Positions 19,185 through 54,114 of a DNA stretch of 64,000 nt are shown in pieces. Below the pieces are notes generated by a model. It had not been told where the DNA came from. It did not search any database and saw nothing but the letters and a program-made list of their open reading frames with translations. The stretch covers positions 1,039,494-1,103,493 of the forward strand of contig NZ_LMDV01000008.1 in NCBI RefSeq assembly GCF_001425175.1. The letters are read 5' to 3'. Position numbers and translations under genes: made by a program. Source of the stretch: Nocardioides sp. Root1257. GTDB taxonomy: Bacteria; Actinomycetota; Actinomycetes; Propionibacteriales; Nocardioidaceae. Each line of letters begins with the position of its first letter. Position 1 is the stretch's first letter.

Positions 19185-19193
19185 GATGTGCGC

Positions 19194-20936
19194 GTGACGA
19201 AGACCCCCCGAGATGCCAGCGGCCGCGAGTCCGCCGGCGGCAAGGTCGTGGTCCTGCTCCTGGGCGGCCTGCTGGTCCTGGTCGGGGGCGCGTACGCCGC
19301 GGCGTACTTCGCGGCCGGCGACAAGGTGCCGCGCGGCACCACGGTCGCGGGCGTCGAGATCGGTGGCCTGACGCCCACCGCGGCCGAGGACGAGCTCACC
19401 GCCGGGCTCGAGGACCGGGTCGACCGGCCGATCCCGGTGAGCGTCGACGGCACGACGGCGACCATCGACCCGACCGACGCCGGCCTGACGGTCGACGTGG
19501 CCGCCACCGTCGACCAGGCCGGTGGCGGGAAGAGCTGGGCTCCCGGCGACCTCTGGGACTACTGGACCGGCGGCGACGAGCAGGACCCGGTCGTGACCGT
19601 CGACCAGGCGTCCTTCGACAAGGCGCTCGACGGCCTGGCCGACGAGGTGGGCACGGCAGCGACCGACGGCGCCGTGGCCTTCAAGAAGGCACGCATCGTC
19701 GTCACGGACCCGGCGCCCGGGGAGGGCTTCGACCCGGAGGCGGCGCGGACCGCGGTGCTCGGCTCCTACCTCTCGGAGGACGACGAGGTCGCCGAGCTGG
19801 AGACGACCGTGGTCCAGCCCGACATCGACGACGCCGACGTGCAGAAGGCCCTGGACACCTTCGCCAACCCGGCCATGTCCGGCCCGGTGACGCTGGTCTT
19901 CGGCGACTCGCCGGTCGAGCTCCAGCCGCGCGACTTCTCCCGGGCCCTGGCGATGAAGGCCGAGGGCGGCGAGCTGGTGCCGGACCTCGACACCGACCGG
20001 CTCACGAAGCTGGTCGAGTCGGACGTGAGCGAGAAGGACAAGCCGGTCGACGCCACCGTGGAGCTGGTCAACGGCAAGCCACGCGTCGTGCCCGCGAAGC
20101 CCGGGGTCACCTTCGACCCGGCCGACGTCAGCAGCGCCTTCCTCGAGCTCGTCAGCCGCAACGGCGACGACCGCAGGATGAAGGTCGAGGCGACGGTCGC
20201 CGAGCCCGAGTTCACCACCGCTGACGCCAAGGCCCTCGGCATCAAGGAGCGCGTCTCGACGTTCACGACGTACTACCCGTACGCCGAGTACCGCAACGTC
20301 AACATCGGGCGTGCGGCGGAGCTGATCGACGGCACCGTCCTCAAGCCGGGCGACACCTTCTCGCTCAACGACATCGTCGGCGAGCGCACGGTCGAGAACG
20401 GCTTCACCACCGGCTTCATCATCAGCAACGGCCTCTTCAAGGAGGACCTCGGCGGCGGCGTCTCGCAGATGGCGACGACGACGTTCAACGCCATGTACTT
20501 CGCCGGGCTCAAGGACATCGAGCACAAGCCGCACTCCGTCTACATCGACCGCTACCCCGAGGGCCGGGAGGCGACGGTCGCGTGGGGCTCGGTCGACCTC
20601 CGGTTCCAGAACGACACCGACCACGGCGTGCTGGTCCACGCCACCGTGCAGCCGGGCTCGAGCTCGTCGCAGGGGGTCGTGACGGTCTCGATGTACTCCA
20701 CCAAGACCTGGGACATCACCAGCAAGACCTCGCCGCGCTACAACTACCGCTCGCCGGGCACCCAGACGCAGAACACCGAGGACTGCGTCCCCAACACGGG
20801 CTACGACGGCTTCGACGTCGACGTGACGCGCTACTTCCACCACGTCGGCGACGACGCGGTCGTGAGGTCCGAGAAGTTCCACACCAGCTACATCGCCTCC
20901 GACACGGTCATCTGCAAGCCGCCCAAGAAGGGCTAG
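19194..20936 (+). CDS. VanW family protein with N-terminal membrane anchor
   Basis: A 580-residue protein with a single N-terminal transmembrane helix (VVVLLLGGLLVLVGGAYAAAY), two repeated putative peptidoglycan-binding modules of about 110 residues (each ending in a DGTTATIDPTDAGLTV-like or NGKPRVVPAKPGVTFD-like block) and a VanW domain (about residues 350-480) with STFTTYYPY, NVNIGRAAELIDG and GGGVSQMATTTFNAM. It is probably exported and cell-wall associated; VanW domains have no settled activity. GTG 19194 is chosen because TAGGAT (19182-19187) lies 6 nt upstream; GTG 19188 is the alternative. Confidence 0.88.
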   Translation: MTKTPRDASGRESAGGKVVVLLLGGLLVLVGGAYAAAYFAAGDKVPRGTTVAGVEIGGLTPTAAEDELTAGLEDRVDRPIPVSVDGTTATIDPTDAGLTVDVAATVDQAGGGKSWAPGDLWDYWTGGDEQDPVVTVDQASFDKALDGLADEVGTAATDGAVAFKKARIVVTDPAPGEGFDPEAARTAVLGSYLSEDDEVAELETTVVQPDIDDADVQKALDTFANPAMSGPVTLVFGDSPVELQPRDFSRALAMKAEGGELVPDLDTDRLTKLVESDVSEKDKPVDATVELVNGKPRVVPAKPGVTFDPADVSSAFLELVSRNGDDRRMKVEATVAEPEFTTADAKALGIKERVSTFTTYYPYAEYRNVNIGRAAELIDGTVLKPGDTFSLNDIVGERTVENGFTTGFIISNGLFKEDLGGGVSQMATTTFNAMYFAGLKDIEHKPHSVYIDRYPEGREATVAWGSVDLRFQNDTDHGVLVHATVQPGSSSSQGVVTVSMYSTKTWDITSKTSPRYNYRSPGTQTQNTEDCVPNTGYDGFDVDVTRYFHHVGDDAVVRSEKFHTSYIASDTVICKPPKKG

Positions 20937-20993: not shown

Positions 20994-21815
20994 ATGCGAC
21001 GCCTCCTCGGACTCCTGCTGGTCCCGTTGGTCCTCGGACTGCTCAGCCTCGCCGCGCCGACGTACGCCGCACCGCCGACGTTCCCGACGTCGCCCTTCGG
21101 CGAGCCGACCGGCGCGAACGACTGGGACTGCACGCCGACCGCGCAGCGACCGACGCCGGTGATCATCGTGCACGGCACCTTCGGCGACCGGAAGAGCCTG
21201 CTCGACGACCTCTCGGCGGCCATGGTCGACCGGGGCTTCTGCGTCTTCTCCCTCGACTACGGCAACCGCGGGACCGGTGACATCGCGGCGTCGGCGCGAC
21301 AGCTGAAGAAGTTCGTCGGCAAGGTCCGCCGGGCGACCGGCGCTGCGAAGGTGTCGATGGTCGGGCACTCGCAGGGCGGCATGATGCCGCGCTACTACAT
21401 CAGGTTCCTCGGCGGCGCGAAGGTCGTCGACGACCTCGTCGGCCTCTCACCCTCCAACCACGGGACCACGATCGTGGGCGATCCCGGCAACCCGCTCACC
21501 GGGGCGCTCTGCCCGGCGTGCGACCAGCAGGCCGCGGGCTCGCCGTTCCTGACCCGGCTCAACGCGGGCGACGAGACGCCCGGCACGGTGAGCTACACCC
21601 AGATCACCACCCGCTACGACGAGGTCGTGGTGCCCTACACCTCCGCCTACCTGGCCGCAGGTCCGCGCACCACCAACGTCACCGTCCAGGACCTGTGCGC
21701 GGCCGACCTCGCCGAGCACGTCACGATCCCGATGAGCCGGACGGCGATCGCGGTCACCCTGAACGCGCTCACCCGGCGCGGTCCGGCCGACCCGGGCTTC
21801 AGGCCGGACTGCTGA
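20994..21815 (+). CDS. Secreted triacylglycerol lipase / esterase (class 2 lipase-like)
   Basis: A 273-residue alpha/beta hydrolase with a signal peptide (MRRLLGLLLVPLVLGLLSLA, probable cleavage after PTYA). The oxyanion motif PVIIVHGTFG and the nucleophile elbow GHSQGG (Ser, about residue 124) are clear; the His is probably in AEHVTIP near the C-terminus. Several cysteines (DWDC, CVF, CPAC, DLC, RPDC) suggest disulfides in the exported protein. It hydrolyses lipid esters outside the cell. The 3' end overlaps the convergent AGE gene by 17 nt. Confidence 0.9.
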   Translation: MRRLLGLLLVPLVLGLLSLAAPTYAAPPTFPTSPFGEPTGANDWDCTPTAQRPTPVIIVHGTFGDRKSLLDDLSAAMVDRGFCVFSLDYGNRGTGDIAASARQLKKFVGKVRRATGAAKVSMVGHSQGGMMPRYYIRFLGGAKVVDDLVGLSPSNHGTTIVGDPGNPLTGALCPACDQQAAGSPFLTRLNAGDETPGTVSYTQITTRYDEVVVPYTSAYLAAGPRTTNVTVQDLCAADLAEHVTIPMSRTAIAVTLNALTRRGPADPGFRPDC

Positions 21816-22965
21816 GCGCCCGCGCGAAGGCCGGCCAGACCGGCAGCCGCGGCACCAGGGTCGCCTGGATGGCGTGGTAGACGTCCGGCTTGCCGACCCA
21901 GGTGCCTGACGCCGGCCGGTTCGCCGGGTCGAGCTCGTGGTGCCACGACCCGTGCTCCCGGTCGACGAGGTAGCGCTCGGCGTACCCCCACCACTGCTCG
22001 GCGCAGATCTCGTAGACGCGGTCGCCGCTCACCTGGGCGAGCGTCGCCGCCGCGGCGATGGCCTCGGTGGCGACCCAGTGCATCCGCTGCCGCACCACGG
22101 GAGTGCTGTCCCAGTCGACGGTGTAGACGAAGCCGGCGGCGCCGTCGACCGCCCAGCCCTCGCGGACGCCCGCGTCGAACAGCGCGACCGCGTCGTCGAG
22201 CATCCAGGCCGGCGCGGCGTCGCCGAGCGCGGCCCGCAGCGCCAGCGTCAGCCGGCTCCACTCGAACCAGTGGCCGACCGTCGCGCCGTACGGCCGGAAC
22301 GGGTGCGCGGGCTCGTCGCGGTGGTAGTCGGGCACAGGCCGCCACTCAGCGTCGAAGTGCTCGGGGATCCGCCAGTCGTGGGACCGCGCGAACCCGTGCA
22401 CGACCCGGGTCACGATCCGCTCGGCACGCGCGACGTCGCCGACCGCGAGCAGCGCCTCGACCGTGTGCATGTTGGCGTTGACGCCGCGGTAGGCGTCGAG
22501 GGTCGTCCACGACTCGTCCCACTCCTCGACGACCATCCCTGCGTCCTCGTCCCAGAAGCGGGTGTCGAGCACGTGCAGGGCCTCGGCCAGCAGGTCCTCG
22601 CCGCCGGGGCGACCGGCGATCGCGGCCGACGACGCCGCGAGCACGACGAACGCGTGCTCGTACGCCGTCTTGGTGCGGGTCACCGGCCCGTCCGGCCCGA
22701 CCGCGGCGTACCAGCCCCCGTGCGCCGGGTCGCGGAACCGCCCGGCGAGAGCGGCGATCCCGTGGTCGACGAGCTCCGCGGCGTACGGCCGCCCCATCAG
22801 GTGCGCCAGCGCGAACACGTGGGTCATCCGGCAGGTGATCCACAGCTCGACCGGCCGCTCCAGCTCCGGCCGGCCGTCGTCGTCGAGCCACGCGAACCCG
22901 CCGTCAGGGTGCACCGACGCGCGTGCGAACTCCAGCAGCCGGTCGGTCTCCTCCGCGAGCTTCAT
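21799..22965 (-). CDS. AGE family epimerase/isomerase
   Basis: A 388-residue (alpha/alpha)6-barrel protein of the N-acylglucosamine 2-epimerase superfamily, as shown by TRMTHVFALAHLMGRP-like text (CRMTHVFALAHLMGRP), YEHAFVVLAASS, RGVNANMHTVEALLA and the active-site block PYGATVGHWFEWSRLTLALR. Members interconvert mannose and fructose, sulfoquinovose or N-acyl-hexosamines; sequence alone does not tell which. The ATG at 22965 has GAGG about 8 nt upstream and is 11 nt after the aspS-like stop, so it is probably co-transcribed from the T-box leader. That would place a sugar epimerase under aminoacyl-tRNA control, which is odd. Confidence 0.88.
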   Translation of the reverse strand: MKLAEETDRLLEFARASVHPDGGFAWLDDDGRPELERPVELWITCRMTHVFALAHLMGRPYAAELVDHGIAALAGRFRDPAHGGWYAAVGPDGPVTRTKTAYEHAFVVLAASSAAIAGRPGGEDLLAEALHVLDTRFWDEDAGMVVEEWDESWTTLDAYRGVNANMHTVEALLAVGDVARAERIVTRVVHGFARSHDWRIPEHFDAEWRPVPDYHRDEPAHPFRPYGATVGHWFEWSRLTLALRAALGDAAPAWMLDDAVALFDAGVREGWAVDGAAGFVYTVDWDSTPVVRQRMHWVATEAIAAAATLAQVSGDRVYEICAEQWWGYAERYLVDREHGSWHHELDPANRPASGTWVGKPDVYHAIQATLVPRLPVWPAFARALSSPA

Positions 22966-22975
22966 CGGTCGAGCC

Positions 22976-24247
22976 TCATGGGGTGAGCCTATGGAGGTCC
23001 CGGGGGAAGAGCGTCACCTCCCGGATGTTGGCGACGCCCGTCAGCCGCGCGGTCCAGCGCTCCAGCCCGATCGCGAACCCGCCGTGCGGCGGCATCCCGT
23101 GCTCGAACGCCTGCAGGTACGACGCGTAGGTCGCCGGGTCCTCGCCCCGCGCGCGGATCGCAGCGTCGTACGACGAGGGACGGTGCAGCCGCTGCCCGCC
23201 GGTGACCAGCTCGAGCCCGCGGAAGAGCAGGTCGAAGCTGTTCGACCACCGCGGCTCGGGCGACGGGTGGGTGTAGAACGGCCGCTTCGCCATCGGGTAG
23301 CCCTCGACGGCGAGGAAGTCGCTGCCGTGCTCCGCGAGCGCCCACGCGCCGAGCGCCCGCTCGTGCTCCGGGGCGAGGTCGGGCTCGTCCTCCGGGGCGC
23401 CGACCAGCGCGAGGGCGTCGCGGAAGTGGATCACCGGGATCTCGTCGGGCACCACCGGCAGCGCGGCGCCCGCGCGCTCGACCGCTTCCGGGGCGTGTTG
23501 GTGGATGCCCGCGACCATGCCGGCGAGCACCTGCCGCAGCACGGCGAGCACGTCGTGGTGGTCGTCGATGAACCCCAGCTCGACGTCGAGCGACACGTAC
23601 TCGGCCAGGTGCCGCACGGTGTCGTGCGGCTCGGCGCGGAAGACTGGGCCGACCTCGTAGACGCGCTCGAAGACGCCGACGAGCTGCTGCTTGTAGAACT
23701 GCGGACTCTGCGCGAGGTACGCCGGCCGGCCGAAGTAGTCGACCTCGAAGACGTTGGCGCCGGACTCGGTGGCCGACGCCACGAACTTCGGGGTCTGCAC
23801 CTCGGTGAAGCCGACTGAGTCGAGAGTCGACCGGAAGCCCCGGACCGACGCGGCGGCCAGCTCCCAGCGGGCCCGCTGTCCCGGGTGTCGCCAGGCGACC
23901 GGGGCGTGGTCGAGCAGCGTCGGCAGCGAGGCGTTCAGCTCGGGCCGCCACAGCTCGACCGGTGGGGTGGCGGCCGGCTCCGTGAGCAGAGTGATCTCCG
24001 GGTCGGTGACCTCGACCCCGCCGGGAGCCTGGGCGTTCGCGGCCAGGGTCCCGACGACCTCGACGGTCGTCTCCTCCGGCGGCAGCGCGGTGCCGCCGCG
24101 GACGACGACCTGGGCGAGGCCGGAGCGGTCACGCAGCACGAGGAACGCGACGGCCGAGAGCTCCCGGCGCCGGTGGACCCAGCCGCGGAGCCGGACGGTG
24201 TCGCCCGGGGTGGTGGTCGGCAGTGATGAGCAGAGAGTGCGTTGCAC
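22976..24247 (-). CDS. aspS: Archaeal-type aspartyl-tRNA synthetase (probably non-discriminating AspRS)
   Basis: Class IIb synthetase of 423 residues: an N-terminal OB anticodon-binding domain (GDTVRLRGWVHRRRELSAVA) then a catalytic core with motif 2 around VGPVFRAEPHDTVRHLAEY and motif 3 GFAIGLERWTARL. It lacks the GAD insertion of bacterial AspRS, hence the archaeal or AspS2 type. The amino-acid pocket block PMAKRPFYTHPSPE with RPFYT favours aspartate over asparagine. Such enzymes often charge both tRNA-Asp and tRNA-Asn, the latter fixed by GatCAB; that is family knowledge. GTG 24247 is chosen because CTGGAGGT is placed correctly upstream and is part of the T-box switch. Confidence 0.9.
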   Translation of the reverse strand: MQRTLCSSLPTTTPGDTVRLRGWVHRRRELSAVAFLVLRDRSGLAQVVVRGGTALPPEETTVEVVGTLAANAQAPGGVEVTDPEITLLTEPAATPPVELWRPELNASLPTLLDHAPVAWRHPGQRARWELAAASVRGFRSTLDSVGFTEVQTPKFVASATESGANVFEVDYFGRPAYLAQSPQFYKQQLVGVFERVYEVGPVFRAEPHDTVRHLAEYVSLDVELGFIDDHHDVLAVLRQVLAGMVAGIHQHAPEAVERAGAALPVVPDEIPVIHFRDALALVGAPEDEPDLAPEHERALGAWALAEHGSDFLAVEGYPMAKRPFYTHPSPEPRWSNSFDLLFRGLELVTGGQRLHRPSSYDAAIRARGEDPATYASYLQAFEHGMPPHGGFAIGLERWTARLTGVANIREVTLFPRDLHRLTP

Positions 24248-24411
24248 GGTTACCTCCAGTGGCAGGAAAGCCCTGGAGGTGTGGGCGGGGGCGAAGTCGC
24301 GGTGCCACCACACCTTTGCCAACGGATCGCTGGCCTCTCGTCGGCACGCCGGACGCGCGGGCGTCCGGATCTCCGCCGGCTCGCGGGAGGGTTGTCAGGC
24401 CTCGGGATACC
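24248..24411 (-). ncRNA. T-box riboswitch, translational type, upstream of the AspRS gene
   Basis: On the minus strand the leader contains the T-box sequence GGTGGCACCGCG (complement of 24298-24309). The variable base is C, which would pair with the G73 discriminator of tRNA-Asp and tRNA-Asn. Downstream, ACCTCCAG (complement of 24273-24280) is perfectly complementary to the Shine-Dalgarno region CTGGAGGT (complement of 24252-24259) just before the GTG start, so the switch can hide the ribosome-binding site. A 5' region contains GACAAC (complement of 24391-24396), adjacent Asp and Asn codons and candidate specifiers. A strong CCGGACGC hairpin lies between. The 5' end is inferred from the -10 position. 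Confidence 0.85.
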
Positions 24412-30691: not shown

Positions 30692-30769
30692 GGGCACACC
30701 CGACCATCCGGCAGCGGCTCGCCGCAATCCGATTCGCCCGGCGTACGGCGGGCGCCGTACGCTGGACCC

Positions 30770-30970
30770 ACAGGCGTCTGAGCCGTCATCAGCGGCGAGC
30801 CTCCGGAAGAAAGCCCTCCGTCGTCAGGCGGGGAGCAAGTAGAACCGGACGGGTAGGCCCGTCACAGCCGTGATCGAGTGGTCGCTCCTCCTTGGAGGGG
30901 TGGCAAGCGAGGTGGTACCGCGGCTCACGTCGTCCTCGTGTCCGAGACACGAGACCCGCAGGAGCCACCG
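30770..30970 (+). ncRNA. T-box riboswitch upstream of ileS
   Basis: The T-box sequence GGTGGTACCGCGG is at 30911-30923; its variable base T would pair with A73 of tRNA-Ile. A candidate ATC specifier in a TCATCAGCGG context lies at 30788-30790, and another ATC is at about 30871. GGCTC (30922-30926) can pair with GAGCC (30962-30966) next to the Shine-Dalgarno region, which fits the translational T-boxes known for actinobacterial ileS. An 8-bp CTCGTGTC/GACACGAG hairpin (30935-30953) sits between them. The start is placed from the TACGCT -10 at 30758-30763. Confidence 0.88.
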
Positions 30971-54053: not shown

Positions 54054-54063
54054 GCGCCGACGT

Positions 54064-54105
54064 ACGACGAAGGCCCCGCCGGCATGCCGGCGGGGCCTTC
54101 GTCGT
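54064..54105. terminator. Bidirectional hairpin terminator
   Basis: A perfect 42-bp inverted repeat, two 20-nt arms (the left arm begins ACGACGAAGG, the right ends CCTTCGTCGT) around AT, placed between the stops of pruA and the convergent OYE gene. No T tract follows, as often in high-GC genomes. Confidence 0.8.
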
Positions 54106-54114
54106 CGTGCTGGG

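Follow-up and report, generated by a model that had tools for sequence, protein, structure and literature searches.

A putative tRNA-Asp-responsive translational T-box with an ultrashort Stem I ahead of a second, archaeal-type aspartyl-tRNA synthetase gene in Nocardioides

In the Actinobacteria, T-boxes that act on translation have been described for ileS, as set out in the cited parts of PMC1262725 and PMC7583486. According to the sections drawn on here from a review (PMC7583486) and a single-molecule study (PMC10651847), ileS T-boxes, or T-boxes with a truncated Stem I, cannot do without Stem II with its S-turn and the IIA/B pseudoknot. In excerpt, PMC2494555 lists ileS for the Actinobacteria and many T-boxes in Symbiobacterium, and TBDB scanned the Actinobacteria with a class II model (PMC7778990, in part); the terms “aspS” and “aspartyl” do not occur in the available portion of the TBDB main text (PMC7778990), and its entry tables may list such leaders. 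Nor is aspS named for actinobacterial translational T-boxes in the cited parts of PMC1262725, PMC7583486, PMC7778990, and PMC10651847. That some Actinobacteria have an extra aspartyl-tRNA synthetase (AspRS) is already in print: the relevant section of PMC4206432 places genomes, mainly of Actinobacteria, in a group with an additional AspRS. Literature searches for aspS2 with a T-box, or for the residues that decide AspRS specificity, gave nothing useful.

Our analysis of a 64,000-nucleotide stretch of Nocardioides sp. Root1257 DNA (hereafter, the window) suggests that the leader of aspS2 is very probably a tRNA-Asp-responsive T-box riboswitch that acts on translation and governs a second AspRS, of the archaeal type. 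The leader lies on the minus strand at about 24411–24248 and contains a T-box core, an antisequestrator, and an 8-bp Shine-Dalgarno (SD) sequestrator. The elements that an earlier note on this DNA had picked out are all present: the core GGTGGCACCGCG (24309–24298, minus strand), the perfect 8-bp complementarity of ACCTCCAG (24280–24273) to CTGGAGGT (24259–24252), a GACAAC hexamer (24396–24391), and a variable bulge base, C, that suits the G73 carried by both tRNA-Asp and tRNA-Asn of this genome. The SD sequence GGAGG (24257–24253) is inside CTGGAGGT, 5 nt ahead of the GTG start at 24247. G73 is found on tRNA-Asp in this genome and in seven others, which fits the bulge UGGC; in Amycolatopsis, where the bulge reads UGGU, pairing with G73 would be a wobble. 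A predicted −10 box, TACGCT (24423–24418, minus strand; consensus match), would place the transcript start at about 24411, in agreement with the far end that the note had assigned to the leader. Among the 51 related leaders of alignment A1 (the near leaders, which come from several families), 39 have a TANNNT box 17–19 nt ahead of the point where the aligned row begins, against 3.3 of 51 expected from shuffles (interval 8–30 nt), and a −10-like box at so fixed a distance suggests that the transcript probably begins directly before Stem I. A covariance model of the 51 leaders, the window's included, gives the window leader 147.5 bits and the next match in the window 10.2 bits. Taken by itself, the folding energy of the full leader (z −2.20; 8 of 200 shuffles equally good) is weak evidence.

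The gene itself, aspS2 (22976–24247, minus strand, GTG start at 24247), encodes an archaeal-type AspRS of 423 residues that scores 523.6 bits against NF003483 (cut-off 353) and 337.7 bits, under the cut-off of 368.4, against TIGR00458 (aspS_nondisc). Its closest solved structure is T. thermophilus AspRS2 (1n9w/3kfu; E 8e-112). In alignment, H25 and the P of NAQAPGG in AspS2 recur in T. thermophilus AspRS2 and in the 1wyd enzyme, and 3nel has W and K there. We take these two aligned positions to be the residues that decide AspRS specificity, and AspS2 is probably a nondiscriminating enzyme that would aspartylate tRNA-Asn as well. The own genome contains gatB, and no AsnRS is among the matches of the searches of that genome. 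Each of the 31 genomes tested, among them 30 with aspS2, has a bacterial-type AspRS that scores over the cut-off (in 2 of the 31 it is split or cut by contig ends); this rules out AspS2 as the sole AspRS, and AspS2 is therefore a spare enzyme. Downstream, an AGE epimerase/D-mannose isomerase-like gene (21799–22965, minus strand; PF07221; NF051846, 477.3 bits, under the cut-off of 600) starts 10 nt past the aspS2 stop and is probably on the same transcript. Its co-regulation, raised in the earlier note, is plausible in this genome given the narrow gap, and the epimerase may be riding along with the regulation of aspS2; as a member of a conserved unit it is ruled out, since the arrangement recurs in just 2 of 74 relatives.

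The leader accompanies aspS2 well beyond this genome. A protein scan yielded 78 loci, 75 of which (L004–L078, with L079–L081 excluded) entered a count of the core, defined as [AG]GTGG[CT][AG]CC[AG]CG or GGTGGCACAGCG lying no more than 260 nt ahead of the aspS2 match. The core is upstream in 73 of the 75; it is not found in L053 or in L055, which has only 237 nt upstream. Of the excluded loci, L079 is nearly devoid of upstream sequence, L080 (43% identity) shows only a core with two mismatches, and L081 (35%) shows none. In a class sample, aspS2 (E 1e-80) is present in 17 of 296 genomes, all 17 with the core upstream by eye; model R1 finds 11 of these and misses mainly long leaders, and its three further matches stand before a bacterial-type aspS (G128), another archaeal-type AspRS (G182), and serS (G225). 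In a genus sample of 196 genomes, aspS2 occurs in 65, the R1 leader in 64, and both in 63, that is, the leader is present in 63 of 65 aspS2 genomes versus 1 of 131 genomes without aspS2 (Fisher p 8e-48, a value that includes kinship, many of the model rows coming from the same genus). In 62 of the 63, the leader match and the aligned start of the gene are −4 to +159 nt apart; the distance is +300 in G1016, whose gene match is without its N-terminal half. Two aspS2 genes of the genus sample have no R1 match: G1126, where the gene match begins at the first contig base, and G1073. The orphan leader (L199, G1178:C1, 236–393), with no aspS2, is followed by unrelated sequence and then by an opposite-strand neighbour gene that resembles the window gene at 19188–20936; it looks like a remnant left after aspS2 loss. 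Farther afield, aspS2 is present in 9 of 299 genomes of the class of the Gaiellasilicea genome (core in 8 of the 9) and in 46 of 400 Chloroflexota genomes (core in 25 of 30 loci fetched), and behind the core 15 of those 25 have a G+C-rich stretch ending in a T-run (pattern match; terminator-like). The leader is missing before aspS2 in the distant L166. In G007 (L121 and L137, G007:C895), aspS2 is split near residue 81–95 by roughly 3 kb of foreign sequence, with the leader before the first part.

The pairings on which a translational switch would depend are conserved in the near leaders. The antisequestrator (24314–24278, minus strand) comprises the 7-bp helix A1, 24314–24308 with 24284–24278, and the 3-bp helix A2, 24300–24298 with 24287–24285, which flank the T-box bulge UGGCACC (24307–24301). 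All of its cells (100%, 49 distinct rows) are paired, with a U-A to A-U double change in 10; 8 of the 10 pairs are uninformative because they are invariant. The SD sequestrator (24280–24252, minus strand) pairs 24280–24273 with 24259–24252, has 24280–24278 in common with the antisequestrator, and is paired in 94.1% of cells in its helix. Stem III (24334–24318, minus strand) has double changes in 4 of 5 pairs and 100% of cells paired. Stem IIA and a candidate IIB pseudoknot occupy 24359–24337 (minus strand): IIA joins 24359–24357 with 24349–24347, its pair 58–67 changing from C-G to U-A in 4 rows (one covarying pair), and we infer a IIB pseudoknot pairing with the conserved GACGAG, the letters of which are nearly invariant.

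Covariation was counted for each of the two alternative folds, with the relatedness of the rows included in all counts. The antisequestrator fold has 99.6% of cells paired (40–59% in slid versions), double changes in 9 of 22 pairs versus 3.6 in shuffles, and 49 double-change cells versus 12.4; its “further pair types,” 14 versus 12.5 in shuffles with 53 of 500 as high, are not clearly above. The corresponding figures for the sequestrator fold are 97.2% of cells, 10 of 20 pairs, and 50 double-change cells versus 14.3 in shuffles. In a model-free ranking of column pairs, the highest places go to pairs from Stem I, A1, Stem III, and IIA, with a few unsupported pairs intermixed lower down. Both folds thus covary, and in most rows the switch nucleotide covaries with its partners in both: columns 125/159/190 read U-A-U in 24 leaders, A-U-A in 12, and U-A-A or U-A-C in 15 of the 51, the last being those in which the outer sequestrator pair is broken (column 159 versus 190, Fisher p 1.3e-4, kinship included). 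In L037 and L049 the sequestrator pairing is lost. These results, together with the core in 73 of 75 loci, bear out the proposal of a T-box leader before an archaeal-type AspRS, and the comparative alignment put forward in the note as a check finds the core kept in close relatives, with covariation. The sequestrator state is the stabler one in 49 of 51 leaders, by a mean of 7.5 kcal/mol over all 51, which fits the need of an off-by-default switch. Only 3 nt are common to both folds, and the model of the antisequestrator state retains a 5-bp hairpin (UCCAG/CUGGA) over part of the SD, so that SD release may be partial.

Stem I is ultrashort (24403–24387, minus strand). GAGG (24403–24400) pairs with CCUC (24390–24387) to form 4 bp under a 9-nt terminal loop, with double changes in 3 of the 4 pairs and 99.5% of cells paired (49 distinct rows), and a plain Stem II hairpin, CCGC/GCGG (24386–24373, minus strand), was assigned by eye, its details not being conserved. 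In motif scans, none of the 51 near leaders showed the S-turn signature AGUA after Stem I, which the window's ileS T-box has, and one of the 51 had a GAAGAA-like string; the near leaders are likewise without the apical module of Stem I. That ileS T-box, 6.5 kb from the aspS2 leader and passed over in the earlier note, served as an internal control. It lies at 30768–30940 on the plus strand, with the ileS start at about 30972, and has AUC in its Stem I loop, the S-turn signature, and a UGGU bulge. By eye, aspS2 leaders take four forms: a long Stem I with Stem II, a long Stem I without Stem II, an ultrashort Stem I (e.g., GGAG-CAGACA-CUCC) with Stem II, and an ultrashort Stem I without the S-turn signature, the form of the window leader. 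In a tree built from 92 AspS2 proteins, the minimal form requires 6 changes, at least 4 of them forced by well-supported branches (midpoint root, hand-given architecture labels, and a hand-picked subset of loci, from which L165 was dropped as too short), and the reduced form may have arisen repeatedly. Intrasporangiaceae leaders seem to do without Stem II and IIA/B as well.

No Rfam family matches at gathering in the whole window. MicroRNA models match below cut-off, on both strands, at a near-perfect inverted repeat (54060–54108; arms of about 25 bp, no loop, one gap). The earlier note had named an RF00230 search as a check, and on its face the outcome is negative: the aspS2 leader is unmatched by RF00230 (gathering 93 bits) even at E 10, no T-box appears at that threshold in the 901 bases around it, and the single place found in the whole genome at E 10 is the ileS T-box (window 30768–30940, plus strand, 36.9 bits). 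At gathering, no T-box is found in the loci of 20 relatives, and the short leaders of L120, L056, L160, L133, and L158 are unmatched at E 1. At this looser threshold, 8 of 11 aspS2 loci match at the leader (L073, 87.5 bits; L078, 81.8; L072, 80.9; L069, 80.3; L129, 54.2; L065, 47.6; L159, 44.3; L046, 35.5), those of L071, L052, and L158 being the exceptions; even full-length aspS2 leaders thus reach at most 87.5 bits, under the 93-bit cut-off. Because homologous long leaders match at 80–87 bits, and because core and covariation are kept in close relatives, we take the RF00230 miss as a false negative; as a verdict on T-box identity it is rejected, since relatives with a full Stem I match.

A degenerate T-box, which would bind no tRNA and merely keep aspS2 translation low or respond to something else, might also be without an apical Stem I module, an S-turn signature, and an RF00230 match, and the cited part of PMC7583486 holds the Stem II domain to be essential where Stem I is truncated. 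We consider such decay very unlikely: specifier, bulge, Stem I, Stem III, and both switch helices are conserved and covarying in 51 leaders from several families, and the reduced form stands in separate branches of the aspS2 tree. Counting against the T-box reading, the two known stabilizers of tRNA binding, the apical module and the S-turn, are unseen, which bears on how tightly the tRNA would bind. That the near leaders recognize tRNA-Asp without either, an anticodon-like U-GAC-purine loop and the T-box/NCCA pairing being enough, is a tentative proposal to which we give slightly less than even odds. The near leaders could break the Stem II rule, could have decayed, or could use another contact, for which the conserved GCGUACCGACGAGAGG, which could still make IIA/B, is a candidate.

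The specifier is GAC (Asp; 24396–24394, minus strand), in the Stem I loop with U before it and a purine after it. GAC is at this position in 51 of 51 near leaders (following base G in 32, A in 19), which had been selected with a pattern that requires TGAC and a purine directly after it, and no near row failed it; 23 leaders had been set aside beforehand as divergent, including L017, L023, and L025, which carry GAC by eye. The triplet behind GAC varies (GAC in 18, GAA in 11, AAC in 10, ACC in 4, others in the rest), and the AAC found there in the window is not conserved, so the earlier preference for Asp is upheld. The first candidate for the specifier had been the GAC in CCGACGAGAGG (about 24342–24340), on the 3′ side of an internal loop; it was rejected because this stretch lies past IIA and the Stem I hairpin bears GAC under covarying pairs. 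Outside the near group, the other readable Actinomycetota leaders have GAC by eye, except L073 and L070. L073 (Gaiellaceae) reads AAC by eye, and the RF00230 alignment likewise puts AAC in the specifier columns; L070 has GAG and L076 (Sulfobacillus) GAU, both by eye. Several long leaders have C or U after GAC, contrary to the usual purine. In the Chloroflexota the specifier is readable by eye in 21 of 25 core-bearing leaders, as GAC in 20 and AAC in 1 (L180). With AAC at the specifier in L073 (about 2227–2469) and L180 (about 1000–1370), which belong to two phyla, the same enzyme type is apparently wired to tRNA-Asn in two separate lineages, each of which seems to have undergone an Asp-to-Asn specifier switch.

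Across several genes the specifier matches the gene: AUC with ileS, UCC with serS (G225), GAC with aspS2, and GAC with the bacterial-type aspS (G128). The G128 leader (L120, G128:C2, 1501–1667, minus strand) is a near-type GAC leader scoring 114.9 bits, about 60 nt from the gene match and with no obvious SD sequestrator, and the G225 leader (L197, G225:C45, 1573–1819, minus strand) is a long T-box with specifier UCC (RF00230, 62.8 bits); these two leader–gene pairings support the specifier reading. The G225 leader is also a Ser T-box in an actinomycete, outside ileS. In G182 (L198, G182:C1, 1458–1693, minus strand) a long Asp T-box precedes an archaeal-type AspRS (NF003483, 480.1 bits) that differs from the window enzyme at both of the N-terminal positions that we take to decide specificity.

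The earlier note had floated a two-codon T-box, in which the GACAAC loop binds tRNA-Asp or tRNA-Asn and either, when uncharged, induces the enzyme. GAC and AAC are indeed adjacent in the window, the two tRNAs both have G73, AspS2 has the H and P residues of nondiscriminating relatives, and AAC replaces GAC in two long aspS2 leaders (L073, L180). Yet AAC follows GAC in just 10 of 51 leaders, L004 and L007, near relatives on the tree, have GAC in its place, and an AAC specifier would sit directly against the stem, leaving no room in the loop for a following purine; induction through either tRNA therefore appears highly improbable. Least likely of all, by a further step, is a leader that senses tRNA-Asn only through AAC, for although the discriminator fits and the enzyme family is named aspartate--tRNA(Asn) ligase, GAC and not AAC is invariant in the 51 leaders (picked with the GAC-holding pattern), and GAC also stands ahead of the bacterial-type aspS in G128.

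For a tRNA-Asp T-box we propose the following course, modelled on folding energies and on the ileS T-boxes. By default the sequestrator hairpin would cover the SD and aspS2 would be little translated. Uncharged tRNA-Asp would pair twice, through its anticodon GUC with GAC in the loop of Stem I and through its free GCCA end with the UGGC bulge, stabilizing the antisequestrator, which would take ACC 24280–24278 from the sequestrator, free the SD, and turn on AspS2. Charged tRNA would be shut out of the bulge, as in T-boxes generally. AspS2 would then be called up when the main AspRS fails to keep tRNA-Asp charged, through starvation or an AspRS inhibitor. Induction of AspS2 when tRNA-Asp is uncharged is likely as far as sequence can tell, AspS2 is probably a nondiscriminating reserve enzyme for a failing main AspRS, and its role as protection against an AspRS inhibitor is a guess.

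If the aspS2 leader works in this way, a T-box can decode tRNA with fewer parts than one would expect from the ileS and glyQS structures, and the leader would offer a compact object for structural work. It would also mean that Actinobacteria hold spare synthetases in reserve via T-boxes and that Rfam's T-box model overlooks a class of T-boxes. Should minimal recognition prove true, the leader would be a tRNA-sensing switch of a size below what present models permit.

In Clostridium acetobutylicum, the T-box of tRNA-dependent amidation is reportedly linked with an extra AspRS and with the making of Asn-tRNA, links that the aspS2 leader would share; it is said to be a two-codon switch in an operon with an amidotransferase, and in this it differs from the aspS2 leader. 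Leaders that RF00230 does match, including the long aspS2 leaders of Chloroflexota and Gaiellaceae, have the same type of downstream gene, GAC (rarely AAC), the T-box, and Stem III, but the long aspS2 leaders have a full Stem I, unlike the window leader, and the T-run stretch in 15 of 25 Chloroflexota leaders (pattern match) is as in transcriptional T-boxes. The long Stem I of glyQS-type T-boxes grips the tRNA at its elbow. These T-boxes are without Stem II, and so without a Stem II S-turn, like the near aspS2 leaders. They keep the long, elbow-gripping Stem I (cited part of PMC7583486), unlike the near aspS2 leaders. The translational ileS T-boxes of Nocardia farcinica, Mycobacterium, and the window resemble the aspS2 leader in a short Stem I whose loop holds the specifier, an IIA-like element, Stem III, a T-box bulge, and an SD sequestrator set against an antisequestrator. 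The ileS T-box differs in its specifier AUC and bulge UGGU, which in the aspS2 leader are GAC and UGGC, and in a long Stem II whose S-turn braces the codon–anticodon helix (PMC7583486 and PMC10651847, in part), whereas the near aspS2 leaders are without the S-turn signature.
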